From the IMG/VR virus record IMGVR_UViG_3300025703_000010, positions 1 through 44,355 of that record: a DNA stretch of 44,355 nt, one strand, 5' to 3'. The DNA comes from a virus. This document shows positions 12,384 through 37,017 of the stretch, in pieces. Both the position numbers and the translations under genes were made by a program. Under the pieces are notes generated by a model, which did not search any database, was not told the origin of the DNA, and was given only the letters and a program-made list of their open reading frames with translations. Within the stretch, counting starts at the first letter, position 1, and each line of letters starts with the position of its first letter.

Positions 12384-12417
12384 GTTGGCGCTGGTATCAC
12401 GTGATGCCGGCGCCAAC
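12384..12417. repeat. Dispersed palindrome, site 5, inside a 34-bp inverted repeat
   Basis: The core GGTATCACGTGATGCC is at 12393-12408. GTTGGCG at 12384-12390 pairs with CGCCAAC at 12411-12417, so the whole 34 bp is a near-perfect palindrome between the cement gene and the next gene. The RNA would form a strong hairpin. No U-run follows, so a simple terminator is unlikely; processing, attenuation or protein binding are options. Confidence 0.85.
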
Positions 12418-13629: not shown

Positions 13630-13653
13630 CCCTGGGATCACGTGATCCCAGGG
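13630..13653. repeat. Dispersed palindrome, site 6, a perfect 24-bp palindrome
   Basis: The core GGGATCACGTGATCCC (13634-13649) is extended on both sides by perfectly matching CCCT and AGGG. It lies in the 54-bp gap before the tail adaptor gene. It is the only copy with two identical non-consensus arms. Confidence 0.9.
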
Positions 13654-17205: not shown

Positions 17206-17667
17206 GTGGCGGAATACCAGATCGTGCCGGCGACCCGAGAGCACGCGGTTAAGCTGGCCGCCAGGATGCGCGCGTCCGACCTTCGGGAATTGCGTGCTCT
17301 GGGGCTCGACCCTTTCGTAGCTCTGTACGATGGCATTAAGGTATCACGTGATGCCGTTACCGGGCTGGTGGATGGCCGCGTGCTCGGCATGTTCGGGGTA
17401 GCTGTCTACGTGCCACTGTCGGATGAGGGCTGCCCGTGGTTCCTCGGCTCCTACGAAGTGCCGCAGCATAGTCGCGCGTTCTTGCGCTTCTGCAAGACGG
17501 GGCTGTCTCACATAGCGCCTCAATACTCATTGCTGGTCAATTACGTTGACGCCAGATACCCTGAAGCTGTAAGGTGGGTGCGCTGGCTTGGTTTTACTGT
17601 AGACGCGCCGGAGCCACGCGGCCCCCACGGCGTTCTGTTCCACCGTTTCTGGCGAGTGCGCGCATGA
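17206..17667 (+). CDS. GNAT-like ejection protein (T7 gp13-like)
   Basis: A 153-residue protein with a GTG start 8 bases after GGAGG. The pattern IVPATREHAVKLAARMRASDLREL, GMFGVAVYVPLSDEGCPWFL, ending in a WVRWLGFTVD motif, matches the GNAT-fold internal virion proteins found next to the nozzle gene. These keep the acetyltransferase fold but are mainly structural. The palindrome at 17340 encodes VSRDA in the loop after DGIK. Its stop overlaps the next gene by ATGA. Confidence 0.75.
   Translation: MAEYQIVPATREHAVKLAARMRASDLRELRALGLDPFVALYDGIKVSRDAVTGLVDGRVLGMFGVAVYVPLSDEGCPWFLGSYEVPQHSRAFLRFCKTGLSHIAPQYSLLVNYVDARYPEAVRWVRWLGFTVDAPEPRGPHGVLFHRFWRVRA
17340..17355. repeat. Dispersed palindrome, site 7
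   Basis: GGTATCACGTGATGCC, in frame as VSRDA, 134 bp into the gp13-like gene. Confidence 0.9.
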
Positions 17668-20074: not shown

Positions 20075-23000
20075 TGGCCGATCCAACTCTCCCCCCGCAA
20101 GAACAGTACACGGCGGCTGACGCTGCGGCTGACGCTGCTAACGCGGCGGGTGCGCCAGCCCAGCACGGCACTGTACAGATCACATTTCCTGGTGGGGCAC
20201 CTCCCGCACCTCCCGCCGGGCCTAACACCTCGACCGCCGCCGTCCCAACGCCGGTAGCTGGCGGTGCTGCGGTTTCTGCCCCGGTGCCGTCACCCATAGG
20301 ACCACCTGCGCCGATCCAAGCTCCGGGTGTGGCACCGGAGCGCGATGCCTACGGCGACCTCCCCGGCGAGGCTGCGCATCCCACGGTAGCTACGGCTCCG
20401 GCACCTGACGCTTACGGTGACCTCCCCGGAGCTACCAGCGCGGATGCTACCGCTGGGCAAAAGATGGGCGCCCTCGGCGAGGGTGTCGCTGGCGGGGCCA
20501 TATCTGGCGGCACGATGATGGCCGGTATGACCAGCGGCATGGCAATAGGCGCTCTCGCTGGTGGCGGTGTATTTGACGCGGCTACCGTGCCGTTTGGCGC
20601 TGCCGCTGGGCTCGTGGCTGGCTACTACGCTGCTAACCGAGCGAAGGCGGGGCTGGGCATACCGGCGCCTGAGCAGATGTCGGCTAACGTGCGGCCATAT
20701 GGCTACGCGGGTGATATGTTCGGCTCCGGCATGTCTATGGCCGGTGAAGTGGCTCTCATGGCGAAGGCTGGGGTGACGAGTTCTATTCCCTTCGTGCAGA
20801 AAATCCTCGGATACGCTCGCTACCACCCGGCGGCGTTTCTAGCAGGGGAAGCCTCCACCAACTTCGGCGCTGGGACTGGGGCTGCGGCCTCTGAAACGGT
20901 AGCGCCAGGCAATACGCCAGCTCGCATAGCCCTTAGCGTCGGGGGCGCCATCATTAACCCGGCCTTCTGGCTACAAAATGGTGGTCGCTTTGCAGCCTCC
21001 AAGTTCGGGTTCTACGGCAAGCTGCTGACGAATGCGGGGCAGAAGAACCTAGTAGCGGCGCGCGCCCAGGCTATAGCGCTATGGCACGGGGAAGACCCGC
21101 AAAGGCTGGCCGATGTACTGACGACGCCCGGCATCGCGGACGTTCCTGGTATCACGTCAGCCCAGAAGAGCGGCAGCCCCGCTCTCGCTGCCATGGAAAA
21201 GAGCCTCACCGACAGTAGCCAGAAGTTCGGCTCCTACCTCCATGGCCGAGCAAAAGACGCGCTGACCACGATGCGGAACGCCATGCACTTGCTCGCCCAT
21301 GGTGGAACGCCGGCCGAAGTGACCGGCCATGCTGAGACACGGGCGATCTATTTCCGCACGCTCATACAGGGCGTCGTGAATGACGCGGTGGACACGGCAG
21401 TTACAGCCGCGAAGAAGCTCACGGTGGACAGCCAGCGCACGCGCGCCCAGCTTGGCAAGATTGCGCAGGATGCTGTTGCCAAAGCGCTGACGATGGCCCG
21501 CGCAGCCGAGAAGGAACTGTGGTCGAAGGTTAATAAGACCATTCCGTGGCAGGCCCCGGAGCATTCCATCGCCGCGTATAAACAAGTGGGGGAGGATGTT
21601 CTTCTCAAGAAATACGGGCAAGGGGTAGACCCTGTAACCGAGCGGTTCTTCGCTTCAATGATGGAAGAGCCGAACCCACTTGAAGAAGGCGATACGGTTT
21701 TCGGGGAAGGCGCCGCAGCCGAGCCGAAGACTACCTCGGGCGAGCTTATTAAGATGCGGGGTCATCTCTTGAACGAAGCTCGTATGCTCCGGGGCGCTAC
21801 TCCGTCGAATGATAAGATGGCGCGTGTTTACGACGAGCTTGCCGATGGTGTCTTGAGCGACCTTAACGAGATGGGCGCCAAATTTGGGGATCAGGCTTAC
21901 GACGCGGCCCGCCAATTCACTAAGGAATTGCACGATGCCTTCCAGCGCACTTTCGCCGGGAGCGCCACGAGTGTCACCCGCAATGGCTCCGGGCGCGTAG
22001 CTCCAGAAGAGTTCTTGGATAAAGCTCTCGGTAGCGGCGGCACTGGCGGCGACCTTCAATTGCAGGAACTTGAAGACGCCACGAAGTTCATGGCCCTGCA
22101 CGGTATGGACAGCCCCGAAGCGCTCAAGAATGTCGGCGTGATGCTCAGCGCGCAGCAGCGGCTATTGCGCTTCGCCGCGAGTGACATCGTGAACCCCGTC
22201 ACCAAACGCATCGACCCTCTGCGCGTGGCGAAGTTCATGCGCGATAACCAGAGCATCCTCGACCGCTTTCCCGAAGTGCGTGGCGAACTAGAGGGGGCCA
22301 TGAAGGGCGAGCAGCAGGCGCAAGACGTGCTCAGCCATTTCGGCCCTGATGGCACCGGCATTGTTTCCAGCGACCAGCTTATCCTCGGCAAGCTTCTCGA
22401 CACTGACGACCCCGTGGGCGCAGTGGCTAAGGTTATGAACGGAGCGCAACCGCTCCAAGACTTCGTTCGCATGGTGGAGCTAGCCGAGAACAGCGGCGCC
22501 CCGGCCGTGAAAGGGCTCACTTCAGCCGTCCTGCAAAACGCCGTCACTAAATCGGTGAAGGGGGGTGAACTGAACTTCGGCATGCTCGATGACGCGCTTA
22601 ACCGCCCGGTGCGTGCTGGGCTGCCGAGCCTGCTACAGATGATGCGGAGCACGGGCCTCCTCGACGTTGGGGAGAGCGGGCGCCTGACGCAACTCCTGGC
22701 GGCTGGGCAGAAGGCCGAAGGCGTCGAGGAACTGGCGCGCGGTGGTCCCGGCATTCCGCTGCCCACTCAGCTAAGCGAAGGGGTGCAGGTCGCCATCAAG
22801 ACGCTGGGCTCCCATACCGGCGGTCGCATCGGCGAGGCTGTCTTGGGGCGCACGACCTTGATCTCGCAAGCCGCATTCTCGGGGTGGGCTTTGAAGCTCG
22901 CTACGCGGGCTGGCGTCGTGCAAGCGACCGACCTTCTCCAGCAAGCGGTCGAGAACCCGAAGGTGATGGCCGATCTGCTGAGGGCACCTACCACGCAAGC

Positions 23001-23568
23001 TGAAGCGATCATGTGGGGACGGCGCTTGCATATGTATACGTTCAATTCCATAGCGGAGGGAGAGGCTCCAGAACCGCCGAAGGAGAGTGACCCCTACGAT
23101 GAGCCGCCGCCTCCAGAGGCAGCCGCCAGTGAGGGGTCTTCGGGTGGGGCGCCCCCTACTCCCCCGCCGCCACCGGCCGCTACAGCGCCTTCTCCTGCGC
23201 CCTACGAGCCCCCCGGTAAAGCTCTGCTTCCGGTGATCCAGAAGCTCGAAGGGAGCGCCAACAATGCTACGTCGCGGAAGGGGGCTATCGGGCGTAACCA
23301 GATAGAGCCATCTACGGCTCACGCCTACGGTTTCTCCGACGCCACTCCTGAGAAGCTTAAAGACCCGGCGTACAACGACTATGTGGCAACGCACATTCTC
23401 TCGGGTCTCCTCCACCAGTTCGGCGGTAATACGAAAGCGGTGCTCGTCGCTTACAACGCCGGCCCGACTGTAGCGCGGCGTTGGCTCGCTGCTGGGGAAG
23501 ATAACTCGGTGCTGCCAACCGAAACGCAGAAGTATCTAGAACACGCTAGTAGGCTGGGCTTGCAATAG
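20074..23568 (+). CDS. Ejection protein with C-terminal lytic transglycosylase (gp16-like)
   Basis: A 1164-residue protein overlapping the previous gene by one base. The first 130 residues are Pro/Ala-rich with two DAYGDLPG repeats. A Gly/Ala/Met-rich membrane-active stretch follows (about 140-195), then a long helical body. A second Pro-rich linker (about 1005-1050) leads to an SLT domain. This has the catalytic Glu1059 in KLEGSANNATSRKGAIGRNQ, then IEPSTA and VLVAYNAGP. It would cleave peptidoglycan locally during DNA entry. In T7 gp16 this domain is N-terminal; here it is C-terminal. A degenerate palindrome copy lies at 21148. Confidence 0.85.
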   Translation: MADPTLPPQEQYTAADAAADAANAAGAPAQHGTVQITFPGGAPPAPPAGPNTSTAAVPTPVAGGAAVSAPVPSPIGPPAPIQAPGVAPERDAYGDLPGEAAHPTVATAPAPDAYGDLPGATSADATAGQKMGALGEGVAGGAISGGTMMAGMTSGMAIGALAGGGVFDAATVPFGAAAGLVAGYYAANRAKAGLGIPAPEQMSANVRPYGYAGDMFGSGMSMAGEVALMAKAGVTSSIPFVQKILGYARYHPAAFLAGEASTNFGAGTGAAASETVAPGNTPARIALSVGGAIINPAFWLQNGGRFAASKFGFYGKLLTNAGQKNLVAARAQAIALWHGEDPQRLADVLTTPGIADVPGITSAQKSGSPALAAMEKSLTDSSQKFGSYLHGRAKDALTTMRNAMHLLAHGGTPAEVTGHAETRAIYFRTLIQGVVNDAVDTAVTAAKKLTVDSQRTRAQLGKIAQDAVAKALTMARAAEKELWSKVNKTIPWQAPEHSIAAYKQVGEDVLLKKYGQGVDPVTERFFASMMEEPNPLEEGDTVFGEGAAAEPKTTSGELIKMRGHLLNEARMLRGATPSNDKMARVYDELADGVLSDLNEMGAKFGDQAYDAARQFTKELHDAFQRTFAGSATSVTRNGSGRVAPEEFLDKALGSGGTGGDLQLQELEDATKFMALHGMDSPEALKNVGVMLSAQQRLLRFAASDIVNPVTKRIDPLRVAKFMRDNQSILDRFPEVRGELEGAMKGEQQAQDVLSHFGPDGTGIVSSDQLILGKLLDTDDPVGAVAKVMNGAQPLQDFVRMVELAENSGAPAVKGLTSAVLQNAVTKSVKGGELNFGMLDDALNRPVRAGLPSLLQMMRSTGLLDVGESGRLTQLLAAGQKAEGVEELARGGPGIPLPTQLSEGVQVAIKTLGSHTGGRIGEAVLGRTTLISQAAFSGWALKLATRAGVVQATDLLQQAVENPKVMADLLRAPTTQAEAIMWGRRLHMYTFNSIAEGEAPEPPKESDPYDEPPPPEAAASEGSSGGAPPTPPPPPAATAPSPAPYEPPGKALLPVIQKLEGSANNATSRKGAIGRNQIEPSTAHAYGFSDATPEKLKDPAYNDYVATHILSGLLHQFGGNTKAVLVAYNAGPTVARRWLAAGEDNSVLPTETQKYLEHASRLGLQ
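21148..21163. repeat. Degenerate palindrome copy (half site conserved)
   Basis: GGTATCACGTCAGCCC: the first ten bases match the consensus exactly. It is read as GITSA, the frame in which the consensus TGA would be a stop; here that codon is TCA. It may be chance, since the nozzle gene has a similar ATCACGTCGGCC in an ITSA repeat. Confidence 0.4.
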
Positions 23569-23588
23569 CTGGTCTCACGTGATACCGT
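23560..23588 (+). promoter_or_regulatory. Promoter of the tail fibre gene with embedded palindrome (site 8)
   Basis: TTGCAA (23560-23565), a 17-bp spacer and TACCGT (23583-23588), preceded by TGA to form an extended -10 (TG-n-TACCGT). The palindrome GGTCTCACGTGATACC (23571-23586) covers the spacer end and most of the -10, so a bound protein would block polymerase. The same geometry is seen upstream of 39990 and 41064. The promoter call is inferred from these matches. Confidence 0.65.
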
Positions 23589-23611
23589 AGCTCTTCAGGA
23601 TAGGGCGCCCC

Positions 23612-25777
23612 ATGACCATCGAAACTCCAGCGTTCAAAACCACTGTCACCGGGAACGGCGCTGCTACCGTCTTCTCGTTCAGCCCAGTTGTGCTATACGC
23701 TGATGGCCAGCTTACCGTGTTCATGCTCGACCTCGATGGCAATCAGACGCAGCTTGTCGAGGGCACCGGCACGGGCAATTTTGGCGTCAACATGCTGACC
23801 GGCTATCCGGGCACGGGCTCCATCACGTACCCGAATGACGGAGTGAGCCCGCCGCTCGCGACCGGCTGGAAGCTCGCCATCCTGCCTGACTTTCCGCTGG
23901 TGCAGACGCTCGCTCTCGACAATCAGGGCGGCTACCTACCGGAGAACCAAGAGCAAGCTCTCGACTACCTTACTATGCTGGTGCAGCAGCTACAGGCTGA
24001 GCTTGACCTGTGCCTGCAAGTGCCGGTTACAGGAGCTACCCCAGGAGCTACGCTCGCGGCCGATCTGGAAGCCGTCGCCGCCAATCTCCCGGCCATCGGG
24101 ATCGCTGCGGCGCAGAACATAGGCCCGGCGGTCGCCATCGCCACCGGCACGAGCCAAACTCGCTCTATCGCCGACTGGCTGGCGTCCGACATGTGGCCTG
24201 AAGATTTTGGCACCACGGGCACGAACGATGACACGACCGTAGTGCAAGACGCGCTCACCACCATCGCCAGCATGGTGGCGTCCATTAACACGGCGAACAC
24301 TTGGCAGATCGACACCAGCGGGCCATTGCTGCGCTTCAAGTCTGGGCGCAGGTATACGATCAACCCGGCTACGGGGCTGACGAAAGCTGCGGGTTTCAGC
24401 ATCGATGCCCGAGGAGCCCTTATTGGTACGCCGGAAGCGTCTCCCATCGTCATCACCCTGTCACCGCAGGTCAACCCCAGCGGCGTAGGGTCGCCGTGGA
24501 GTGACGAGATCAAGGGCGGCAACTGGACCTGCGTGAACTTCCTTATCCAAGGCAGCGGCACCAATTCGGTTATCTCTTGGACGCAGGGCATCACGCTGCG
24601 TGATCTTGGCATGTTCGGCTGGAACCAAGCAGGATCGTTCGTGGTGCCAGAGGGTATCACTGTAGGAAAGTGTGCCAACGCCATCCAGCTAGCGCGCTGC
24701 TTCATCAGCAGCTACAACACCGGCATCCGCATCATCGGCCATGACGGTTCCGGTAAGGCGACGCGCGGCCATTCGCGCACGATCATCGACGGCTGCCATA
24801 TCGGGCGCTTGGCGCCGCTGACAGGGAGTGGCACAGCGCCCGGCGACGGCAACACCGGCACCGGAATATGGCTGGACCTTGCCGGGGCCGACGGGGAGAC
24901 CCTGTTGATCTCCGACTTGCTGGTCGAGGGCGCCAATTACGGCATATACCTCGACAATGGCAGCGGCACCAAAGCGACCGCTAATAGCGGCCTCTACGGC
25001 GCTGGCGCTGGCGGCGGCAATGCCACTGCCCTAATCACCGGGCTGCGGTGTGACAGCGTTCAGCAGATGGTGTACAACGGGATAGAGGGCTGCACCATCG
25101 TCGCGCCTTATGCGCCGCCGAATGAAACGACGCCGATGATTAACGACGCCGCCATCTACGTGAACTACGGCGTCGTCAACGTACTTGGCGCGCGCATCGA
25201 GTTCCCCAACGCTGACAGCACCGATAACGCAATGGTGGTCAACCGGGCTAATGGCGCCGTTGGGTTCTGGGAGGGGAATGCCACTGGCGCGGGCCAGCAG
25301 TATCCCTTCAACGTGCCGGCGCCGCTGCGCACGCTGGTCGGCGACCAAGTGTGGCAAACGCTCGTCACCGGCGTGCTCTACGTCTATGCGCAGGGCAGCG
25401 GCAGCTTCAAATTCCAGTTCATCGACGACGCCGGCTTTTTCTCCAACACGCTCTCGACCGCGATCTCATCGGGTTCGATTAGCGTCGGATCAGGCGACAA
25501 CGAAGTCACATTCACCATCGGCTCCAGCAGTGTCATCTATGTGGCCTTTGGATCGACTAACTTCACCCTCGCCGGCAATCCCGCCGTGACGGGCTGGAAC
25601 GCGCAGCCAACTGGTATGGTCGGCGGCGGAATAGCTGCCGGCCACAAGGCGGCGTCCACGACGGTTATGTCCATCACCTTCTACGACCTCGATCTCTCGA
25701 CGGGGATGGCCTTCACCGGCCTCGCATCCGGGCAGAACATGGCGATCGCGCTGTCGCTTCGGCTTAGCAGCGCATAG
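23612..25777 (+). CDS. Tail fibre/tailspike with pectate-lyase-like fold
   Basis: A 721-residue protein. The N-terminal domain (TVTGNGAATVFSFSPVVLYA, GWKLAILPDFPLVQTLAL, YLPENQEQALDYLTMLVQQL) is the standard phage tail-fibre anchor, attaching to the adaptor. DWLASDMWPEDFGTTGTNDDTTVVQDAL marks the start of a beta-helix domain typical of tailspikes. The middle has many NxG turns and the C-terminus (about 580-721) is a beta-sandwich trimerisation or binding domain. It probably determines host specificity and may cut a surface polysaccharide. It has its own promoter with an embedded palindrome. Confidence 0.8.
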   Translation: MTIETPAFKTTVTGNGAATVFSFSPVVLYADGQLTVFMLDLDGNQTQLVEGTGTGNFGVNMLTGYPGTGSITYPNDGVSPPLATGWKLAILPDFPLVQTLALDNQGGYLPENQEQALDYLTMLVQQLQAELDLCLQVPVTGATPGATLAADLEAVAANLPAIGIAAAQNIGPAVAIATGTSQTRSIADWLASDMWPEDFGTTGTNDDTTVVQDALTTIASMVASINTANTWQIDTSGPLLRFKSGRRYTINPATGLTKAAGFSIDARGALIGTPEASPIVITLSPQVNPSGVGSPWSDEIKGGNWTCVNFLIQGSGTNSVISWTQGITLRDLGMFGWNQAGSFVVPEGITVGKCANAIQLARCFISSYNTGIRIIGHDGSGKATRGHSRTIIDGCHIGRLAPLTGSGTAPGDGNTGTGIWLDLAGADGETLLISDLLVEGANYGIYLDNGSGTKATANSGLYGAGAGGGNATALITGLRCDSVQQMVYNGIEGCTIVAPYAPPNETTPMINDAAIYVNYGVVNVLGARIEFPNADSTDNAMVVNRANGAVGFWEGNATGAGQQYPFNVPAPLRTLVGDQVWQTLVTGVLYVYAQGSGSFKFQFIDDAGFFSNTLSTAISSGSISVGSGDNEVTFTIGSSSVIYVAFGSTNFTLAGNPAVTGWNAQPTGMVGGGIAAGHKAASTTVMSITFYDLDLSTGMAFTGLASGQNMAIALSLRLSSA

Positions 25778-25788
25778 GGGGCTAGGAT

Positions 25789-26160
25789 ATGGACCCGTCA
25801 GGCGCTTATGGAAGCCAAATGCTAAACAAACTGTCACATGACGTATCGCTGACGTTGGGCACTTTCGTTGTCCTATCGTCGAATATCGAAGCCACCGCTG
25901 GCGCGATGGCGGCGGTGTTCCTTATGCTGTGCGGGGCCATTACGGTTTACACGCGCGTACAGCAAGCGCGAACGGCAATAGTAATGCGCCACAAGGCCGA
26001 GCACGAGCTTAATATGCTCCAGTCCTCGGATGTCCGCCGCGCGGCCGAGGTAATCCTGAACACGGCGACCGAGACGGCGCGGATGCTGCGGATCAAGAGT
26101 GAGGAAAGCGAAGCTCTGCGGGCGGCTGTAGCTAAGACGGAGGCGCTAAGTGGCTCATAA
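25789..26160 (+). CDS. Membrane protein, holin candidate
   Basis: A 123-residue protein with one clear membrane segment (AGAMAAVFLMLCGAITVYT, residues 37-55) and a weaker hydrophobic run before it. A charged helical tail follows, probably coiled coil (HKAEHELNMLQ, KSEESEALRAAVAKTEAL). It is the last large gene of the rightward structural cluster and meets the endolysin gene tail to tail. Size, topology and position fit a holin or a spanin-like membrane protein; I cannot tell which. Confidence 0.5.
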   Translation: MDPSGAYGSQMLNKLSHDVSLTLGTFVVLSSNIEATAGAMAAVFLMLCGAITVYTRVQQARTAIVMRHKAEHELNMLQSSDVRRAAEVILNTATETARMLRIKSEESEALRAAVAKTEALSGS

Positions 26161-26209
26161 GGGCCTCCACAAGGGTAGCAGCTTAGGCGACCACGGGAAG
26201 AAGAAATAG
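26150..26209 (+). CDS. Possible 19-residue basic peptide
   Basis: A GTG-initiated frame reading MAHKGLHKGSSLGDHGKKK that overlaps the holin candidate's stop and runs 27 bp into the 3' end of the convergent endolysin gene. It is basic and Gly/Lys-rich. It is supported only by overlap style, with no ribosome site beyond GGAGGCGCTAA upstream, so confidence is low. Confidence 0.25.
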   Translation: MAHKGLHKGSSLGDHGKKK

Positions 26210-26638
26210 CGCGGCTTCTGCCTCCCTGCGCCGCACTAGCCCATGGGATATGATGGGTGGATGGCCGGCGTAGACGTAGAGTTTTAGCCCTTTCGGCACT
26301 GCTAGGTAGTCTCCGGTGTTCAGCAGCCGCGTGAATGTGGCTCTCTCCAGGGTGCCGGCTCCCGTATTGAAGGTGAAGCTCACCAGGGCGCCAAACTGGT
26401 TCTCGTTGAGCGCCGCAGTGACGGCGTGGACAACGGCCTCCTCGGCTATCGTGAGGTCTGCTTCAAGCACGTCATCTGCTTGGTCTCTCGTGATACCAAG
26501 GTGCCAGTCTTCCTTGGACAGCACCCTGTGACCCCAGCCGATGGTCAGATAGCCGTAGCCGTCGTAGTACTCCTTCGGCTGGAAGCTCTCGAAGCTCTCA
26601 ATAAGCTTGAGCGCGGCGGCGTTAATCATAGCCGCCAC
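26183..26638 (-). CDS. Endolysin, GH24 muramidase
   Basis: A 151-residue lysozyme of the T4/P22 type. The Glu-Asp-Thr catalytic set is visible: Glu17 in LIESFESFQ, Asp26 in YYDGYGYLTIGWGH and Thr32. NENQFGALVSFTFNTGAG is the second family landmark. Start is GTG at 26638 or ATG at 26629; neither has a strong ribosome site. There is no signal or SAR segment, so release to the cell wall needs a holin. It is the last gene of the leftward cluster. A palindrome copy with one core mismatch (26482) encodes GITRDQ. Confidence 0.92.
   Translation of the reverse strand: MAAMINAAALKLIESFESFQPKEYYDGYGYLTIGWGHRVLSKEDWHLGITRDQADDVLEADLTIAEEAVVHAVTAALNENQFGALVSFTFNTGAGTLERATFTRLLNTGDYLAVPKGLKLYVYAGHPPIISHGLVRRREAEAALFLLPVVA
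26482..26497. repeat. Palindrome copy with one core mismatch, site 9
   Basis: GGTCTCTCGTGATACC. On the coding (-) strand it reads GGT ATC ACG AGA GAC C, where the consensus TGA stop has become AGA. It lies within the endolysin gene. Confidence 0.65.
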
Positions 26639-27033
26639 GACTTCTGCTTGGGAACTTTGTAAGCGACATGTAGGACGGGCGCCTCGGCTGCTTCAGTAGC
26701 GGGGGGCCGGCTGCTATTGCGGAGGAAAACCTCCAGTCGTGCGAGCGCGTTCCACGCAAGCTGCGCTGCGTGCAGCATGTCGGCGTCTTCATGGTTCACG
26801 AAACCTTCCAGCGCCTCCCCCGCCATATGCCGCATACAAGCTTCGGTGTACATATTGTAGGCGTCAGGTATATCCAGGTAGCTCATGTCGCCGATTGCTA
26901 CCTCATGTTTCTTGGCGCCGTACTCGGATACCCGCGCGATCTCCATGAAAGCGCGCGGGAAGCGTGCCAGTACGTTACGGTATATGTTAACCTTCGCGTA
27001 CTTGGCGGCGGTAGCGGAAGCCAGTTCACTCAT
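26626..27033 (-). CDS. MazZ-like dATP/dGTP diphosphohydrolase (MazG-fold)
   Basis: A 135-residue protein. The ATG at 27033 is chosen because AGGAGG lies 6 bases upstream, inside the end of the preceding gene. FPRAFMEIARVSEYGAKKH (25-43) and EACMRHMAGEALEGF-DADMLHAAQLAWNALARLEVFL (65-104) match the phage dATP/dGTP diphosphohydrolase N-terminal family, a MazG-like all-helical fold that removes pyrophosphate from purine dNTPs. In Z-genome phages the MazZ member makes dGMP for 2-aminoadenine synthesis. It is translationally coupled to the HD hydrolase gene upstream. A general dNTP-pool role is the safe reading. Confidence 0.7.
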   Translation of the reverse strand: MSELASATAAKYAKVNIYRNVLARFPRAFMEIARVSEYGAKKHEVAIGDMSYLDIPDAYNMYTEACMRHMAGEALEGFVNHEDADMLHAAQLAWNALARLEVFLRNSSRPPATEAAEAPVLHVAYKVPKQKSWRL

Positions 27034-27727
27034 ATACAACCTCCTGTGGCGCTATTTTAGCCACTTTGCACAGCGCAAGATAGCAGTCCAAGAACTCGCG
27101 TTTGGCCCGTGGGGGTGCCCAGCATTGTACATTAACCCCCTCTAGCGGCTGGTACTGATCGAATGCCCACGGTTGCGGGTAGCGCATAATAGCCACCTTC
27201 TCCACGGGAACCATTCGGCGATCTATCGTCTTAATTTTGGAGGCACAAATAATACGCCACGGCGTCACTCCGAAACTCTCGTCAATCACGCGACCTATAT
27301 TAGCCTCCAGGTCGGTGTACGCGGACCCCACCGCATGCTTGACGGCGCGCGATAGGTCGTTAAGGTACGCCTCTGGAGCGTCGTGCAGCAAGACCGCTAG
27401 CGCAGCCAAAGGCGGCCACTTCGCCACCGAGAAGGCGTAGCGGGCCATGAGTACGCTATGCTCGGCTACGCTGTAGAACCGGCCGACCATCCCCTGCCCT
27501 GAGTACCGGCAGTCCAGCGCCAGACCGTTGGCAATGTCTGATATAAACACCTCTTCCTGCCGAGGGTCGAGTGGGTAGAAGCGGCCACCCAGGCTCGTCT
27601 GCTGCCACTCGCCTTTACGACCCGGCATAATGTCGTCGAAGCTGGCGTCGGGTGCCTGCTTAGGCCGCGCGTTCGCTAAGCCCCAGTCCTGACATTGCCC
27701 GAAAAACTCTCTCATCATGCTCTCCAT
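27026..27727 (-). CDS. HD-domain nucleotidase (YfbR/DatZ-like)
   Basis: A 233-residue protein if started at ATG 27727; ATGs at 27718 and 27715 overlap the preceding stop and are alternatives. FYSVAEHSVLMARYA gives the first metal His (His90), ALAVLLHDAPEAYLND the HD pair (His115, Asp116) and Glu119, and KIKTIDRRM the last Asp169. This is the YfbR-type HD phosphohydrolase pattern, acting on deoxynucleotides. DatZ, which destroys dATP in 2-aminoadenine phages, is of the same fold. Its end overlaps the MazZ-like gene by 8 bp. The specific substrate cannot be read from sequence. Confidence 0.8.
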   Translation of the reverse strand: MESMMREFFGQCQDWGLANARPKQAPDASFDDIMPGRKGEWQQTSLGGRFYPLDPRQEEVFISDIANGLALDCRYSGQGMVGRFYSVAEHSVLMARYAFSVAKWPPLAALAVLLHDAPEAYLNDLSRAVKHAVGSAYTDLEANIGRVIDESFGVTPWRIICASKIKTIDRRMVPVEKVAIMRYPQPWAFDQYQPLEGVNVQCWAPPRAKREFLDCYLALCKVAKIAPQEVVYE

Positions 27728-29214
27728 TTTGGCGGGTGCTTCCCCTTGCCGTAGCAAGTGATGATGACGCGCTTGCCATTTGGGTACACGCCGATATGGC
27801 TGCGCGTCCATGACGACTGCCCGACGTTGTAGCCCTGCTCCAGGTCTCCCGTGATACCAGACACGTAGGCGCCGAACCAGATGCCGGCTGAGTGGCTATG
27901 GCCGGTGTTTGTCTTGCGGCCCATTTGGGCGAACTGCATCGCGGACCCAGGACGGCCATTCGACCCGTTGTGCCCGTGGATGCCACACTCTATGCCGCCG
28001 TTGGCGTCGCCGCAGATTACGAAGCTCTCGTCCTGCTTGAGGAACTGGAGGGGAACCGGATGCGGGGACATAAACAGTCGGCAAGCGTAGTCCACGATGT
28101 TGAAATTGCGCAGCTTTGGCGCCGCGATCTCCTGGTACACCGCCAACTGGAGCTTCAGGAATAGGAGCGCGTTCGGCGGGTCGGTACGGTAATCGGCCTC
28201 GCGCAGCCAGCGCTTCAGGGCGTTGTCGTGGTTGCTGTCCACGATCACCGTCTTGCACCACGGGCGGTAGGAGCCCTCGGTCAGGAACCTCGCCACGCTC
28301 TGCAATTCTACAGCCACGCTGTCGGTATTATTGATGTACTTCTCGAAGTTGGCGTGCGGGTTCCCGCGATCATGGTGGTTGCGCGAGCGGAAGTCGAGGA
28401 CATCGTGCATGAACTGGAAGCGCGGCTTCAGCACGTCCATCATGCCGTCTTTGCCCCACAACATCTCATCGACGGCCGCCGGCACGGTGCCCAGGTGTAT
28501 ATCCCCCCAGGTTATGCCCTCCATGCGATGGCCCTTCGTGACCTTGCCGTCCTTGGCACGCAGGGTAAGATCGTATATGGTGCCTTCGCTGTCAGCGTTA
28601 AGCTGTCGCACAAACCATACGCCGTCGCTGTCTACCTCGACTAAGAGGCCGCCGTAGCCGTGATGGAAGGACGCCTTAAGCCCTTCCTTCTTCAGGATGT
28701 AGTTGCGCTGCGTTACGGTGCCGGTGGTGTAGTTGATCTTGGTGCCCTCGGACTTCTGCGATGCGACCGAGCGCATAGCGAACTGCACGTGGGGGATAAT
28801 GCCCGACTGCCGGCCCGTGTAAGCTTCCAAGCCGGATAGCGGTTGTACCGCAGTGGGCAGGATGTTCATCTCCCCGCACCAGACGAGCCCTGGGGCCACC
28901 TGAACGCTTTGGTCAAGGATATGTGGCTCAAGCTCGGGAGCCCACCACGGCTCACCTCCTGCGCCCTGCGTCGATCCTCGCTTGATGCTGCCCTTGCCAT
29001 AGGCGGCTTTGTTATAGGTGAAGGTCGAGACGTGAATGCTGGCGTTATAATGCTTCGCCAGCGCCTTAATGTTCTCCCACGCAGGCGTGAACAGCTTGGT
29101 GTTATTCTGGGCGCAGGTGAAGATATAGCGGAACACCCTACCCTCGGGCGGCACGTCCCAGGTGGTGCGGGGCAGCGTCTTCACGGCGCCATGCAGGGCT
29201 CTAAAAAGGGGCAT
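27715..29214 (-). CDS. Calcineurin-like metallophosphoesterase
   Basis: A 499-residue protein with all five blocks of the metallophosphoesterase site: GDIHLG (Asp238, His240), Asp271 in MHDVLDF, SNHD (Asn328, His329, Asp330), IHGHNG (His413, His415) and GHSH (His439, His441). The first 230 residues are an extra domain without a motif that I recognise. Large phage proteins of this type include the T5 A1 protein, linked to host DNA degradation; that link is by architecture only. The gene starts on a TAATG overlap and lies among DNA-metabolism genes, so DNA or nucleotides are likely substrates. Confidence 0.75.
   Translation of the reverse strand: MPLFRALHGAVKTLPRTTWDVPPEGRVFRYIFTCAQNNTKLFTPAWENIKALAKHYNASIHVSTFTYNKAAYGKGSIKRGSTQGAGGEPWWAPELEPHILDQSVQVAPGLVWCGEMNILPTAVQPLSGLEAYTGRQSGIIPHVQFAMRSVASQKSEGTKINYTTGTVTQRNYILKKEGLKASFHHGYGGLLVEVDSDGVWFVRQLNADSEGTIYDLTLRAKDGKVTKGHRMEGITWGDIHLGTVPAAVDEMLWGKDGMMDVLKPRFQFMHDVLDFRSRNHHDRGNPHANFEKYINNTDSVAVELQSVARFLTEGSYRPWCKTVIVDSNHDNALKRWLREADYRTDPPNALLFLKLQLAVYQEIAAPKLRNFNIVDYACRLFMSPHPVPLQFLKQDESFVICGDANGGIECGIHGHNGSNGRPGSAMQFAQMGRKTNTGHSHSAGIWFGAYVSGITGDLEQGYNVGQSSWTRSHIGVYPNGKRVIITCYGKGKHPPKWRA
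27843..27858. repeat. Palindrome copy with one core mismatch, site 10
   Basis: GGTCTCCCGTGATACC. On the coding (-) strand it reads GGT ATC ACG GGA GAC C, with the consensus TGA replaced by GGA. It is within the metallophosphoesterase gene. Confidence 0.65.
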
Positions 29215-30254: not shown

Positions 30255-32230
30255 AGCCCGTACCTTTCTCCGACGTTAATCTTGCCGTCAATTGGCCAAT
30301 CTTGAGCGAACGTGCCGCGCGTGTCGATCAGCAGGCGCTTGAACTCTTCAGCACTGCCGAAGCCCGGCTTCTCCTCGGTGGCGATCTCGTCGTATACGGT
30401 AAGGATCGGATGGTAGCCGGCGAGGCGAAGGCGCCGCTTGCCGGGCTCCATGATCTGACGCGCGGTGGCCTGCGTCCAGTTTTCCGTGAGCTTCCCCCCG
30501 TAGGTGTAGACGCGCTTCCAGTGGCCCTCCTTCTGCGCCATGTATGAGAGCTTAGGCACGGGCTTGCACCCGCACGTGCCATTGGCGCAATCTTCGCGCG
30601 TCACCGGCTGGTGCCACTGCGGCATCCCGGCGCGTATCTGCGGCTGGAAGTACCATAGGCGCTTCTCGCCATCGGGCAACAGCATCGTCAGCCATTCGTC
30701 TATGATCTGGAACTCGGCGCCGCATGGCTTAACCCGGAACATATGGCCGGGGTACGTTACGGCCTCAGTGGCGGCGCTTTCCATGTTGCGCCACATATCT
30801 ACGATGGCCGGGCACTCTTTGCGCCACGCCTTGCAGAAGCCGATGATCGCCTCGTCGCTATGGATGGGGCGCGGGTCGAACTTGAGCCACGCATTGAGAG
30901 CGCCCTGGTAGCCGAACGCTAGCTCGCATCTCTTACCATCCTGGCGTTCCGGCATTTTCTTAGTGCAGGTGCCGGGCGCCCAGCCGTAAATCTTGTCGGC
31001 CGTAAGCTCGTAAATCTTAGCCTTATTGCGGAACGCCTCGATCTTCCACTCCTCACCGGCGCCGCACGCGAGCACCACGGCCTCGATGGAGGAATAGTCA
31101 CCGGAGTAGATGACGTTCCCCGGCTCGCCCTTGATCCAGTACCGGCTTGCCTTGCTCACGACTTCCATAGCCTCGCCGTAGCAGGTATCCAGCCACTCTG
31201 GGTCGCGGTAGGCAATGTCGCCGCATAGCTGAGCGCTGTCCATGTCTTCGAGCGGTCGCGCTAAGTTCAGCGGTTGGAAGCCACTGCCAGTCTCACGCCC
31301 CGTAGCCGCGCCGTGGTAGCGCGTCTGAAAGCGAGCGCGGCCGTCGCTACCGCAATGGCGCATCATAGCATCCAGCTTCTTCGTGCTAGCCTTGTTCACC
31401 TCGACCCGTATCTCCAGCGCCCGGCGAGCGGGACCGCGCGGTATCTCACCATCCTCCATCAGGTCGTTGAGGTACTCAGCTCGCATGTTGTCGAGGTTAA
31501 TCTCGTGCCCGGCCATCCACGCGATGACCTTGGCACCTTGGGTGGGGTTGAGGCCGGTGATGGCCCGGAACTCGGACACCAGCATAGTGCTGCGTTTTTC
31601 TACAACTGCGATGGCGTCGGCAATCCCTTCCTGGTCGAGGTAAAGGCCGCGCAGGTTCGTCTCCAGCGTGAGAAGGAAAATCTCAAGCTCGTGCGGCGGA
31701 AGACCCCCGAGGTGCTTGCTCACCGCGCGCTCCAACTCCACGTCATCGACGCAGTAGGCGACAAAGCGCGCAAGATCGTCAGCCGGGATCGTCCCCTTGT
31801 GCGCCGTCTTGAGATAGAGCTTGCTGTATTTCGAGATAAGACGCCCACCGTCCGCATTCTTGGCACCGATACCAAGGGCCTGTGCTAGCCTGTCGAGAGC
31901 CGCAGGCAGAGCGTAGTAGCACGCAACCGCCATCGTATCCCGCCACTGGGTCAAGGGGACAGACGGCCATGAGAACTTCCTTTCGAGTATGTTGAGCCAG
32001 TGGGATAGCTCGAACGAGATGTTGTGCGCCTCAAGGTCATGCCCGTCCGCTATGGCGTCGAACAGCGCTTGCGGAGGTGCCATATATGGGGTCCAAACCT
32101 GAACAGCGGCGTCATCTATGGCGTAGCAGGCGCAGATGATCTCCGTCGTCGGGTCCTCTGAATAAACCCAAGCGCCAACGCGCTTCAGGTCTGCGTAGGA
32201 GCGCGTCTCAAGGTCCAGCGTGATAGTCAT
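30251..32230 (-). CDS. DNA polymerase, family A
   Basis: A 659-residue polymerase with a 3'-5' exonuclease domain: DLETR (Asp6, Glu8), AHNISFE (Asn70) and YCVDDVE (Tyr159, Asp163). The polymerase motif A is VIYSGDYSSIEAVVLA (Asp378). Motif B region KRCELAFGYQGALNAW is at 433-448, and motif C ILTVYDEIA is at 609-617 (Asp614, Glu615). Motif C has Tyr613 where most family A enzymes have His. There is no 5' nuclease domain. It replicates phage DNA together with the PrimPol-helicase, DUF2815 SSB and SNF2 helicase of the same window. Its start overlaps the winged-helix gene (ATGA). Confidence 0.95.
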   Translation of the reverse strand: MTITLDLETRSYADLKRVGAWVYSEDPTTEIICACYAIDDAAVQVWTPYMAPPQALFDAIADGHDLEAHNISFELSHWLNILERKFSWPSVPLTQWRDTMAVACYYALPAALDRLAQALGIGAKNADGGRLISKYSKLYLKTAHKGTIPADDLARFVAYCVDDVELERAVSKHLGGLPPHELEIFLLTLETNLRGLYLDQEGIADAIAVVEKRSTMLVSEFRAITGLNPTQGAKVIAWMAGHEINLDNMRAEYLNDLMEDGEIPRGPARRALEIRVEVNKASTKKLDAMMRHCGSDGRARFQTRYHGAATGRETGSGFQPLNLARPLEDMDSAQLCGDIAYRDPEWLDTCYGEAMEVVSKASRYWIKGEPGNVIYSGDYSSIEAVVLACGAGEEWKIEAFRNKAKIYELTADKIYGWAPGTCTKKMPERQDGKRCELAFGYQGALNAWLKFDPRPIHSDEAIIGFCKAWRKECPAIVDMWRNMESAATEAVTYPGHMFRVKPCGAEFQIIDEWLTMLLPDGEKRLWYFQPQIRAGMPQWHQPVTREDCANGTCGCKPVPKLSYMAQKEGHWKRVYTYGGKLTENWTQATARQIMEPGKRRLRLAGYHPILTVYDEIATEEKPGFGSAEEFKRLLIDTRGTFAQDWPIDGKINVGERYGL

Positions 32231-32544
32231 GTGCGATCCGGCTTTAGTGAATACCCGAAACCGTACCTAGCTTTTATGTTGTAGCCCATCTTGCGCAAGT
32301 GCATGATCGTTATGCGCAGGGCCACGTCGGGGTCCTTGGGCTGGCGGTCGAACCGCGATAGCACGAATTTCTCGCCGCGCCGCCAGTCTTCCCCCCACAA
32401 GGAATTGATTATGGTCTCACGTGATACCGAGTTTCCGCGCCCGCTGGCGATGATGCCCAAGACCGCTCTTGGTAGTGGCGCCATATTCGGCTCCTTGAGG
32501 GCCATGACAAAGGCGTAGAGAGAGACGGTCGTGAAGTCGCTCAC
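32227..32544 (-). CDS. Winged-helix DNA-binding protein (OmpR-type wing)
   Basis: A 105-residue protein from GTG 32544, with GGAAG 6 bases upstream and a GTGA overlap with the previous gene. VLGIIASGRGNSVSRETIIN, the SLWGEDW that follows, DVALRITIMHLRKMGY and IKARYGFGYSLK follow the OmpR/PhoB C-terminal winged helix: conserved VSRE, LWG, recognition helix with HLRKMG, and the wing RYGFGYSL. There is no receiver domain. A site-specific DNA-binding role is likely. The palindrome at 32413 encodes its VSRET. It is one candidate for the protein that reads the palindromes. Confidence 0.65.
   Translation of the reverse strand: MSDFTTVSLYAFVMALKEPNMAPLPRAVLGIIASGRGNSVSRETIINSLWGEDWRRGEKFVLSRFDRQPKDPDVALRITIMHLRKMGYNIKARYGFGYSLKPDRT
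32413..32428. repeat. Dispersed palindrome, site 11
   Basis: GGTCTCACGTGATACC. On the (-) strand it is in frame as VSRET, within the conserved VSRE turn of the winged-helix gene. Confidence 0.9.
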
Positions 32545-32684
32545 GACAGCTTCCCGACCAACCCGACTACGGCTAGCGCATAGCCGCTGTAAATCAACAC
32601 GTTGTTCCAGTCGCCTTTGAACCCCTGAGCGATGGCGATGCCGAGGTAGCACAAGCCGGGTATTATGACGAGAGCCGTGCTCAC
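32541..32684 (-). CDS. Small membrane protein
   Basis: A 47-residue protein starting at GTG 32684 on a GTGA overlap. It has two hydrophobic segments: ALVIIPGLCYLGIAIAQ (4-20) and VLIYSGYALAVVGLVG (29-44), with a short loop. A two-pass small membrane protein could be an antiholin, an exclusion factor or a membrane anchor; there is no basis to choose. Confidence 0.5.
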   Translation of the reverse strand: MSTALVIIPGLCYLGIAIAQGFKGDWNNVLIYSGYALAVVGLVGKLS

Positions 32685-33644: not shown

Positions 33645-34793
33645 TTAAACCTTCCTCGTCTTAGTCGCGGCCTGGAACATGGCCTTGGTGTCCTGGTTCA
33701 CGGCCGCTCGCGGGTCCATATCCTTCACAACCGTCAAGCCGGTGTCAGGCTTGAACGCCCAGCGAGCGACAAATGCCTCCCCCTCTGGTAGAGCCTCCAT
33801 CTGCGCCGGGCTCAAGAGTTCGGGCGCAGTGTATGCACTGTCGCCGAATGCGGCTTTGGCAGCGGCTTCGGCTCCGTCTTTGAATATACGGTTAGCCTTT
33901 GCCTTAGCGAGCTTGAAGCCGGCGATTTTATGCCCAGCTTCGAGGCGACCGAAAGCAGTCTTGCTCGCAGCCTTCCCCACAATCTTCGCCGTCTCCAGCA
34001 ATGTAAGGAAACGACTGACTTGCTCGTTTGTAAGTTCATCGGCAGTCCTCGACATCGCGCCCATCATCGTCTCCAGTTCGGCCATGTCTGATACCAGTTG
34101 GGGGCACGCCCGAAACCGTACCGGGCAGAATCGGCAGTGCTCACCGCTGGCGGTATCACGTGAGACCAAGGCGCGGTCCATCGCGGGGATCAGTTGCCCC
34201 AGGAGCCACTGCTCAAGGTTCTCGGTTGAGATAGACCACATGCGATGCGCTTCCCCGAAGCACCGGGGCTGCACGATATGCAGCACGACCATATCTACCT
34301 GGTCCCAGAGCTTCAATTGCTCCAGGGCGCCACAAGCGTAGCCCATCGTCTGCGGATTATGCTTCACCTCGACGTAGATGCCAGCGCCATGCTTGTAATC
34401 CCATATATGCAGCACGCGCCCGAGCTCATCGAGGTACACAATGTCCGCCGTGCCGTAAAACAGAGCATGGATCGTCGGGCAGTAGTATTTCTCCTCGGTC
34501 CAGAAGTTGCCCTGATTGCGGTCGGGATGGGCCTTGCGGACAGCGGACAAACACACCTGAACCGCGTCTGCCATCGGCTTTTCAATAGCGCCGCCGATGT
34601 ATTCCCAGGCGTCTTTCTGCTCCTGGAAGGCTAGGTCGAGCAGTTCGTGCGCCGCCGTCCCTGGCTTGGCGAACTCACCGTCGTCGTCATCATCGTGTAG
34701 GCCCTCGCTCAGGCCTACGGAGCCTGGGCACGCCATGAAGCGCTCAGCACCAGACATGCCGAGGGGACTATGGCCAGCGGGAACTTCGCTCAT
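33645..34793 (-). CDS. DUF2800 PD-(D/E)XK nuclease
   Basis: A 382-residue protein. The ATG at 34793 (GGAGG 9 bases upstream, ATGA overlap with a tiny gene) is preferred to the longer frame. LGMSGAERFMACPGSVGLSE is the start typical of DUF2800/Cas4-like proteins. YGTADIVYLDELGRVLHIWDYKHG holds the Asp and D-x-K catalytic centre, and QTMGYACGAL the following Gln-Tyr motif. Cys residues near 240-255 (HCRFCPVRFRAC) plus Cys29 could hold an iron-sulphur cluster. It is likely a recombination or DNA-processing exonuclease. The palindrome at 34152 encodes VSRDT just before the Cys cluster. Confidence 0.82.
   Translation of the reverse strand: MSEVPAGHSPLGMSGAERFMACPGSVGLSEGLHDDDDDGEFAKPGTAAHELLDLAFQEQKDAWEYIGGAIEKPMADAVQVCLSAVRKAHPDRNQGNFWTEEKYYCPTIHALFYGTADIVYLDELGRVLHIWDYKHGAGIYVEVKHNPQTMGYACGALEQLKLWDQVDMVVLHIVQPRCFGEAHRMWSISTENLEQWLLGQLIPAMDRALVSRDTASGEHCRFCPVRFRACPQLVSDMAELETMMGAMSRTADELTNEQVSRFLTLLETAKIVGKAASKTAFGRLEAGHKIAGFKLAKAKANRIFKDGAEAAAKAAFGDSAYTAPELLSPAQMEALPEGEAFVARWAFKPDTGLTVVKDMDPRAAVNQDTKAMFQAATKTRKV
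34152..34167. repeat. Dispersed palindrome, site 12
   Basis: GGTATCACGTGAGACC. On the (-) strand it is in frame as VSRDT in the DUF2800 gene. Confidence 0.9.
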
Positions 34794-34909
34794 AGCCAGC
34801 GCCTCCACAAGTCCACAAGTACAATCGCGAAAAATACTACGCCCAGCCATACCAGCGACACCAGCGCCAGCTTAGCGGCGAACAGAAGCAGAGTGTCTGG
34901 CGTGCTCAT
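34790..34909 (-). CDS. 39-residue single-pass membrane protein
   Basis: A tiny gene linked to both neighbours by ATGA overlaps (34906-34909 and 34790-34793). It reads MSTPDTLLLFAAKLALVSLV, then WLGVVFFAIVLVDLWRRWL. One long hydrophobic span (7-33) is followed by a basic end, giving an N-out or anchor topology. Perfect fit in the 116-bp gap and double coupling support it. The function is unknown. Confidence 0.6.
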   Translation of the reverse strand: MSTPDTLLLFAAKLALVSLVWLGVVFFAIVLVDLWRRWL

Positions 34910-35523
34910 TTCGTCGCCTCGATCATGCGCCGCACCTCGTCGATGAAGTCACGGCGCTGAACACCTTTCATCTCGCCCACTGTCTTGACCCCGAACTTGG
35001 CGACTAGCTCGGTGACGACGCGCGGTGTGAGCGCACGGGCGCCTGCACTGGCAGCCTTCGCCAGATCAGCGTCCGTGATCTCTTCAGAAGGGGATGCAGT
35101 CGCAGCGATCGACGGGGTTTCCGCAGAAGTCGCAGGTGCTCGGCGACGGCTTGTGGAGACGGCTGAGGGGGCAGGGGATGGTTCCGTAGCACCAGCCGCC
35201 GCTGGGGCTTCCACAAGTGGCACACTTGCGACTGTGGAAGCGTTTCGATGGCGTGTCGTCGGCGGCGTAGGGTCCACGGGTGCGGCTTCTGCAACCTCCC
35301 CGCTGATGGCGTTGGCCTTGCGCCGGCGCGAAGTCTCGCGCGGTTCCGGCGCAGCAGCAACCACTTGTTCCGGCGCAGCAGCAACCACTTGCTGCGCTAC
35401 AGTATCACGTGATGCCGCTTCGTAGGCATGCTCGATGGTGACGCGGCGCAGGGCTATGGCGTCGATGATCGCCCGCGCCCAATCGCCTTCTTCGGCAGCA
35501 GATAGCTCGATGGTGATCTTCAT
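34906..35523 (-). CDS. Phage protein with Ala/Pro-rich linker and helical C-terminal domain
   Basis: A 205-residue protein. The N-terminal domain (KITIELSAAEEGDWARAIID, RRVTIEHAYEA) is followed by a long Ala/Pro/Thr/Ser/Arg-rich linker (40-145) with a duplicated QVVAAAPE. The C-terminal helical domain (RALTPRVVTELVAKFGVKTV, GEMKGVQRRDFIDEVRRM) resembles a small DNA- or protein-binding domain seen in phage recombination operons. It has its own promoter in the gap upstream. The palindrome at 35401 encodes ASRDT before the linker. Confidence 0.55.
   Translation of the reverse strand: MKITIELSAAEEGDWARAIIDAIALRRVTIEHAYEAASRDTVAQQVVAAAPEQVVAAAPEPRETSRRRKANAISGEVAEAAPVDPTPPTTRHRNASTVASVPLVEAPAAAGATEPSPAPSAVSTSRRRAPATSAETPSIAATASPSEEITDADLAKAASAGARALTPRVVTELVAKFGVKTVGEMKGVQRRDFIDEVRRMIEATK
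35401..35416. repeat. Dispersed palindrome, site 13
   Basis: AGTATCACGTGATGCC. On the (-) strand it is in frame as ASRDT, about 107 bp into the 205-residue gene. Confidence 0.88.
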
Positions 35524-35578: not shown

Positions 35579-37017
35579 TGTTTATCGAGTGCAGCGTGGA
35601 TGTTGATCGCCTTGTCGATGGCAGTTGCGAGCACGCGCTCGTCTAGGGTGCCTGGGCAAACGGGGATATGGCCTATGGTGCGCGCGCCCGTCTGACCCAT
35701 GCGATTTATGCGGTCGAGTAGCTGATCGTTCTTCCCCGGCACCCAATCGAACTCAGCTAGCACCGCGTCTTGCGCAGCCGTCAGTGTCCACCCCTCCCCC
35801 AGCGGTAGCATCTGCCCGAGGATTATCTTCACTCGATCGTCGGACTGGAAGCGGTCCACCGCATTCTGTTTGCGCGAGACGCTAGTGCGGCCGTCCATAT
35901 ACACTAGGCCATACCGCTCCAGGCGCCCGCGCAGGTAATCAAGAACCGCATGATGCCACGCCGAGACGACAAGTTTAGTAACGCCGCCCTCCATCAAGTC
36001 GTCTATGTAAGTGGCGACGGATGGGGCTTTAGCAAGCCCTAATTCCTTGCGCGCGGTAGCTATAGCGCCGTCGATTGGAACCCCCCGGTCGAACGCCGCC
36101 GGGTCAAGCTCGTATAGCTTCGACGCTTGAGCGAAGCCAGGATGCTTCAGCGCTTGGCGGATGGCACTCGTGAGCACCAGCGGAAATGGGTGCCACGTCT
36201 TGAGTGGCAGTTGCTTGAGAACGTCCACCTTGCGGCGCCGTACCATGAGGTTCTTGCGCAAGCGGAATTGCAGATCGTCGAGGTTGCGAGGGACATTGCG
36301 GACCTTGTTTGAATAGTGGAGCTTGCGCGCCCATACTTGCGCTTCAGTGTCGAATGTCATCCCGCGCACCATGCCGCCGCCAAGATCGTAGTAATACTCC
36401 ACGAAGTCTTCGAGGCTGGCCTTATTGATGGCGCTCCAATTGAGCAGGCGTATGGCGTTGTAGCACTCGCGCGGCTGGTTCGGCAGGATTGTGCCAGAGA
36501 GCGCCGTGAAGCGCCCGGTTACGCTGGGCAACCGGTCCTCGGCGCACACGACCTTAGTGCGGTTGTTCCCCCTTGGGTCTTTCATGGCGTGGGCTTCGTC
36601 CAGTATCACGTGATCCCACCGCAGGTCGAGGATAGCCGCGAGGATACTCGGATTTGTGAGCATCGCCCATGACAGGATCACGTAGTCGGCCGTGTTGCTG
36701 ACACCATCTGTTGACTTAAAAACCATTGAGGTGGTGACGTTTAGAACTGTTGACCAGTTCCAAATCTCACGCTGCCAGTTTATCAGTAGGGAGGCAGGGC
36801 ACACGACGAGGGTGCGATTAGCACGTATAGCGTTGCTGACAAGGATGCCTTCGCACGACTTTCCGAGGCCGGGATCGTCGCCTATGAGCGCGTGGTTGCG
36901 CTCGATTACGTATTCCGCGCCCGCGAACTGAAACTCCATTGGCGCTGTAGAAGGGGGATGCGGCGCACGGTAGAACAGTGGCTCTTCTGCCCAGGAGCGC
37001 CCGACATCGTAGTTCAT
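35575..37017 (-). CDS. SNF2-family helicase/ATPase
   Basis: A 480-residue superfamily 2 protein. Walker A GDDPGLGKS ends at Ser54, the motif II box DEAH is at 140-143 in HVILDEAHAMKD, and motif III-like ALSGTIL follows. The C-terminal RecA-like lobe has QMLPLGEGWTLTAAQ and motif VI QLLDRINRMGQTG. The size is that of the minimal SNF2 core found in phage replication/recombination cassettes, probably remodelling forks or displacing proteins. The palindrome at 36602 lies at motif II and encodes DHVI, the only exact intragenic copy not read as SRD/E. It overlaps the protease gene by ATGA. Confidence 0.9.
   Translation of the reverse strand: MNYDVGRSWAEEPLFYRAPHPPSTAPMEFQFAGAEYVIERNHALIGDDPGLGKSCEGILVSNAIRANRTLVVCPASLLINWQREIWNWSTVLNVTTSMVFKSTDGVSNTADYVILSWAMLTNPSILAAILDLRWDHVILDEAHAMKDPRGNNRTKVVCAEDRLPSVTGRFTALSGTILPNQPRECYNAIRLLNWSAINKASLEDFVEYYYDLGGGMVRGMTFDTEAQVWARKLHYSNKVRNVPRNLDDLQFRLRKNLMVRRRKVDVLKQLPLKTWHPFPLVLTSAIRQALKHPGFAQASKLYELDPAAFDRGVPIDGAIATARKELGLAKAPSVATYIDDLMEGGVTKLVVSAWHHAVLDYLRGRLERYGLVYMDGRTSVSRKQNAVDRFQSDDRVKIILGQMLPLGEGWTLTAAQDAVLAEFDWVPGKNDQLLDRINRMGQTGARTIGHIPVCPGTLDERVLATAIDKAINIHAALDKH
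36602..36617. repeat. Dispersed palindrome, site 14
   Basis: AGTATCACGTGATCCC. On the (-) strand it encodes DHVIL immediately before the DEAH box. Confidence 0.85.

Follow-up and report, generated by a model that had tools for sequence, protein, structure and literature searches.

Why would a phage carry, inside its genes, near-copies of a palindrome whose exact form would end those genes? This question is raised by the window, the whole 44,355-bp record of an uncultured phage (IMGVR_UViG_3300025703_000010), the capsid protein of which is 54-57% identical to the capsid of BPP-1/BcepC6B-type podoviruses. It contains 18 copies of a 16-bp palindrome with the consensus GGTATCACGTGATACC and at most two mismatches, and a further copy at 21148 with three, none of these sites being an exact copy of the consensus (Table 1). 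According to the original prediction, copies lying in the reading frame in which the consensus encounters a stop are mutated exactly at this stop, suggesting selection on DNA position as well as on protein. Our data support this selection, restrict the mutated stop to a rare fallback and suggest that the palindromes are probably binding sites of a phage-encoded homodimeric protein with a genome-wide role.

The three copies at 21148, 26482 and 27843 are located as claimed, in the frame in which the consensus is read as ACG-TGA, and have TCA, AGA and GGA in place of the stop: on the coding strand they read GGT ATC ACG TCA GCC C (GITSA), GGT ATC ACG AGA GAC C (GITRD) and GGT ATC ACG GGA GAC C (GITGD), respectively. 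A gene-internal copy in this frame has to deviate within TGA, since translation would otherwise terminate there, and the deviation is therefore no evidence by itself; the informative part is the retention of the other 13-15 bases. The copies show three, two and two mismatches to GGTATCACGTGATACC and two, one and one mismatches to the variants used in the window genome. Synonymous codons were redrawn for all genes in 200 rounds, following the codon usage of the genome: in the stop frame, words differing from the genome's variants by no more than one mismatch were observed twice compared to 0.005 expected, and those with at most two mismatches three times compared to 0.085 expected. Given the peptide, the codon choice at each stop-frame site has a probability of 0.0012 to 0.0021, AGA for example accounting for 2.8% of Arg codons. 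The three imperfect copies moreover occupy the two widest gaps left between the intact sites (8842 and 6231 bp), and adding them lowers the coefficient of variation (CV) of the spacing from 0.77 to 0.47, which is matched by three random genic positions with P = 0.002. The copies at 26482 and 27843 are genuine array members, beyond chance, and the copy at 21148, weaker taken alone, probably is one as well.

It is improbable that the three copies are mere conserved peptide motifs (GITRD, GITGD) resembling the palindrome. GITGD is indeed kept in the metallophosphoesterases of the site-less relative G003 and of G034, the palindromes of which lie elsewhere, and IT..(D/E) is present also in the distant G035 endolysin, but GITGD is encoded by GGT ATA ACT GGA GAT in G003 and by other codons in G034 as well. 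The same codons in a phage lacking palindromes had been named beforehand as the observation speaking against selection; G003 has the same peptide with different codons and leaves the selection claim intact: at the metallophosphoesterase site, protein conservation gives the residues and not the codon choice. The codon probabilities, the excess of stop-frame words over expectation and the position of the copies in the two largest gaps likewise argue against a peptide origin.

Mutation exactly at the in-frame stop does not hold as a rule. A frame census of 232 sites in 18 site-bearing contigs, with gene calls from a simple codon-usage caller, assigned 128 sites to intergenic DNA, which makes up only about a tenth, and 15 to overlaps with gene ends, the gene-internal sites being distributed over the VSRDT frame (77), the YHVI frame (8) and the stop frame (4). 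Three of the four stop-frame copies are those of the window; the fourth is doubtful, having three mismatches. The change of TGA to AGA also occurs with no stop at stake, i.e. in G051 (intergenic and in frame 1) and in G054 (frame 1), and AGA is therefore accepted as a half-site variant as well. In general, sites sit where translation tolerates them. They are found directly 3' of stops and directly 5' of starts; five genes in relatives terminate on the palindrome's own TGA, and in nine genes the last base of the stop codon is the first G of the palindrome. Of the claim that nine exact copies lie within genes, the count leans on doubtful short open reading frames (ORFs), e.g. at 1822 and 12393, while the reading pattern is right: the clear gene-internal sites are read as x-S-R-D/E-x, the site at 36602 as W-D-H-V-I-L, and no intact copy occupies the stop frame.

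Conservation at the codon level is seen in the exonuclease gene (DUF2800), where the codons of the site, GTA TCA CGT GAT ACC, are the same in G006, G034, G040, G041, G045, G048 and G049, the exonucleases of which share 46-61% protein identity (G045 and G049 being near-identical there), while outside the site identical codons at identical residues amount to only 31-53% among all homologues. In G052 the site reads GTC TCA CGT GAG ACC, i.e. the genome-wide dialect of G052 itself, and no palindrome is present at this position in G003 or G051. Selection on DNA position besides protein is thereby backed by codon redraw, gap filling and codon-level conservation.

The array extends over related phages. 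Near-complete genomes with the standard site (the window, G006, G034, G035, G036 and G041) carry 12-30 copies each, and words with at most two mismatches are absent from 30 capsid-gene relatives (approximately 1 Mb). The interval between sites in the window and related genomes is 1.5 to 4 kb, with a CV of 0.46-0.61 in these six genomes and of 0.21 in G051, this being more even than in controls respecting the intergenic preference (P < 0.001 to 0.01). Spacing is also more even than random in G058 and G060 and not clearly even in G048, G049, G052 and G067. No conserved sequence was found outside the 16 bp around aligned sites, and there is therefore no promoter attached to the site. This bears on the possibility of conventional operators, i.e. 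promoter-linked sites of a phage transcription regulator with no genome-wide spaced array, which we consider unlikely: most sites are intergenic and close upstream of gene starts, and the gene of the candidate regulator is itself flanked by sites, but aligned sites show no promoter-like signal, many sites lie mid-gene at conserved positions, some are in convergent gaps, and the spacing is more even than intergenic placement yields. A role as RNA hairpin was judged unlikely as well, as common variants alter one half only, breaking the pairing on at least one strand. Only one window site has two identical halves compared to 4.4 expected from the half-site pool (P 0.03); this excess of unequal halves is absent in most relatives, and perfect palindromes are used by e.g. 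G035 and G052.

The site exists in lineage dialects, every one of them ACGT-centred (GGTATCACGTGATACC, GGTCTCACGTGAGACC, GGTATTACGTAATACC, GGGATCACGTGATCCC, GGTGTCACGTGACACC, GGTGTGACGTCACACC and GGGTACACGTGTACCC), with the cores CACGTG, TACGTA and GACGTC, and ACGT is kept in all short dialect forms (TATCACGTGATA, TCTCACGTGAGA, TATTACGTAATA, GATCACGTGATC, TGTGACGTCACA, TGTCACGTGACA and GTACACGTGTAC). G036 mixes two site dialects, and G035 has the minor form GCTATCACGTGATAGC. The site-carrying phages span 44 to 65% G+C and thus probably infect several hosts.

A gene on the minus strand of the window (39169..39990) accompanies the array. It was found in every site-bearing genome covering the region, and all five contigs fetched by its protein alone carry sites. 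Contigs were also picked by the neighbouring helicase, regardless of sites; of the 27 that extend 3.9 kb or more upstream of it, 22 have protein and sites, three neither, two the protein without recognisable sites and none sites only (Fisher P = 0.003, relatedness not being corrected and some contigs being near-duplicates). A site within 200 bp is present upstream of 10 of 15 and downstream of 10 of 15 genes of this partner family compared to 20% for other genes (n = 499; P ~1e-4), so that sites flank the partner gene three times as often as other genes. Relatives of the protein were recovered by alignments only, single-protein scans of IMG/VR and a first genome scan giving none, and none is present in cultured phages of the collection. 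Two copies of the site-associated protein occur in G035 (L198, L199), G036 (L201, L203), G052 (L260) and G067 (L365). It is quite improbable that a host protein binds the sites, or that they are host-restriction or host-uptake signals, the phage protein being incidental, since phages of such different G+C content have the array only with the protein, the dialects track changes of the protein, and the sites flank its gene.

The partner protein is modelled with a long helix on its N-terminal side and, predicted confidently, a domain of five helices, the last of which spans 35 residues and contains an N182-x7-R190 basic motif. Arg190 is invariant in all members, N182 is replaced in several lineages, and other putative contact positions of this basic helix differ in the TGACGTCA, TTACGTAA and TCTCACGTGAGA lineages. 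Foldseek searches with full and domain models against solved and viral predicted structures gave no match with E < 0.001, a match to designed armadillo repeats being judged spurious, and sequence searches of the PDB returned nothing.

Taken together, we consider it fairly likely that the palindromes are the binding sites of this phage-encoded protein acting as a homodimer, and that the sites are maintained at roughly regular intervals across the entire genome. The protein would read the central ACGT and its flanks, probably via its last, basic helix, and DNA may be bridged or coated by its long N-terminal helix, which is rich in Lys and Ala. With a site occupied every 1.5 to 4 kb, the protein would most likely act as a transcription roadblock (stoperator-like) and/or as a genome-organising scaffold, and it probably regulates its own gene. 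Where neither intergenic room nor a harmless frame is available, a site would be retained with a mutated TGA, as at 21148, 26482 and 27843. Three observations weigh against this model: the protein has no convincing Pfam or PHROG match and could be matched to none of the known DNA-binding families or folds; common descent explains some of the shared site positions, the evenness across genomes thus not being fully independent; and G003, G057 and the 60-kb L390 record encode diverged homologues of the protein with no clear palindrome array. A separate dispersed motif was considered in two of these and rejected, the top repeated words in G003 being an 18-nt coding tandem repeat that is not dispersed, and the motif CGGCATCGATGCCG in G057 being near shuffled controls with most copies not palindromic.

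The core TCACGTGA is also present in parS (TGTTTCACGTGAAACA), raising the possibility of a ParABS-like partition system with the palindromes as parS-type centromeres. This is highly improbable, although the palindrome contains the core in most lineages and the protein resembles some partition proteins in having a long segment that is both basic and helical. Neither ParA (PF13614) nor the ParB N-terminal domain (PF02195) was found in any of 17 records, while control genomes score, so that a ParB/parS identity was rejected; the outer bases differ, dialects such as TGACGTCA drop the parS core, and 12-30 sites are spread over the genome rather than forming a cluster.

ACGT-core sites together with an N-x7-R pattern recall bZIP proteins. 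The partner protein shares with these the palindrome cores named above and the basic helix, and the cropped helix, scanned unprompted against Pfam, matched bZIP_1 (E 0.007) and bZIP_2 (E 0.01) with the residues in register, both below curated cut-offs; such sub-threshold matches were obtained for two of 16 members and for none of 10 control segments, and the helix profile had no match in the PDB. In contrast to bZIP proteins, the helix comes after a globular domain, the long coil lies on the N-terminal side, the site comprises 16 bp instead of about 8, and no leucine zipper is found C-terminal to the basic region, the helix ending near residue 206 and being followed by a low-confidence stretch. 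We take the resemblance weakly, as a lead and not as a claim of membership. A bacterial repressor, RptR, was termed bZIP-like by its authors (PMC12255303). We propose only tentatively, and regard as doubtful, that the family reads ACGT-core palindromes with a bZIP-like basic helix at near-regular 1.5-4 kb occupancy, its dialects drifting by co-evolution of helix and site. If true, this would be a type of periodic viral chromatin or roadblock system that has not been described for phages, and a mode of recognition regarded as mainly eukaryotic would have a case among prokaryotic viruses.

By analogy, the nearest functional counterpart is the stoperator system of cluster A mycobacteriophages with the L5 gp71 repressor (PMC5712189, PMC9283540, PMC6550527). 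There, about two dozen short, mostly intergenic sites are bound by a phage protein, and the consensus varies among related phages (PMC5712189); many dispersed copies of one short site are likewise found here (12-30 per near-complete genome). Stoperators are asymmetric, 13 bp long and oriented with transcription, and their repressor binds as a monomer (PMC5712189, PMC9283540), whereas the sites described here are 16-bp palindromes, evenly spaced and also intragenic, the protein is unrelated, and an integrase is mostly lacking. A tyrosine integrase was detected in one of 17 records and a serine recombinase in none of the records searched, which may be incomplete. The integrase gene (L197, G034:C1:47162-47653) lies in G034, the relative having the most genes in common with the window, and is lacking in the window itself and in 15 other records, which hints that G034 may be a temperate relative. 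A further system of similar logic is the repeated element of SPbeta with its repressor MrpR, in which a phage protein binds repeats at various intergenic places (PMC10516654); MrpR has a tyrosine-recombinase fold, in contrast to the small all-helical domain with a long basic helix predicted here.

What would be new is the pairing of an apparently undescribed protein family with the DNA code that it probably reads, in several natural dialects. That the spacing stays even despite coding constraint points to a structural or silencing role across the genome, and whether small phages organise or silence their own DNA with site-specific proteins becomes directly testable. The array also illustrates cleanly how selection at the DNA level acts through sequence that encodes protein.

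Table 1. Palindrome sites and the candidate site-binding protein in the window.
Feature	Position	Strand	Remarks
Palindrome site	1822..1837		holds probable ATG start of downstream gene
Palindrome site at terminase start	5957..5972		M-A-S-R-D-T; same position in G002, G044, G046
Palindrome site	7817..7832		intergenic
Palindrome site in gene preceding capsid gene	10101..10116		ASRDT; common to G036
Palindrome site	12393..12408		at gene start; ORF start uncertain
Palindrome site	13634..13649		intergenic; sole copy whose halves are identical, GGGATCACGTGATCCC
Palindrome site in gene 17206..17667	17340..17355		VSRDA; same position in many relatives, not in G003
Weaker imperfect palindrome, 1164-residue transglycosylase-type gene	21148..21163	+	stop frame, TGA to TCA, GGTATCACGTCAGCCC, 3 mismatches
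Palindrome site	23571..23586		intergenic, immediately 3' of stop codon
Imperfect palindrome in endolysin gene	26482..26497	-	stop frame, TGA to AGA, GGTATCACGAGAGACC
Imperfect palindrome in metallophosphoesterase gene	27843..27858	-	stop frame, TGA to GGA, GGTATCACGGGAGACC
Palindrome site in gene 32227..32652	32413..32428		VSRET
Palindrome site in DUF2800 exonuclease gene	34152..34167		VSRDT; position and codons conserved
Palindrome site in gene 34906..35523	35401..35416		ASRDT
Palindrome site in SNF2-type helicase gene	36602..36617		third frame, WDHVIL; common to G051, G054
Palindrome site	39148..39163		6 bp downstream of partner-protein gene
Candidate site-binding protein, 273 residues	39169..39990	-	Lys/Ala-rich long helix 9-114, five-helix domain 95-206
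Palindrome site	40059..40074		69 bp upstream of partner-protein gene
Palindrome site	41096..41111		overlaps start of ORF 40624..41103
Palindrome site	43414..43429		intergenic

Several observations concern individual records. In G006 (L192, L194) the helicase gene is split over two contig ends although the record is classed as linear, which suggests a circularly permuted or complete genome. G066, at first sight a possible prophage in a host contig, is more probably chimeric, joining sequence from two phages. L382, a contig of 4.2 kb assigned to a Nitrospinaceae metagenome-assembled genome, encodes a 62% identical relative of the partner protein and has one near-consensus palindrome; it is probably a phage contig, giving a possible hint to Nitrospinaceae as host.

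Within the window, gene 32227-32652 encodes a small phage protein that weakly matches the OmpR-type winged helix (Trans_reg_C, E 0.0006, short of the cut-off), and the palindrome at 32413 falls inside its DNA-binding region. Two genes, 37568-38236 and 43938-44354, consist of short tandem repeats with 15-nt and 18-nt units and are pentapeptide- or hexapeptide-repeat-like, a similar 18-nt array being present in the distant relative G003. Finally, three near-identical 75-nt direct repeats lie in coding sequence at 5224-5448.

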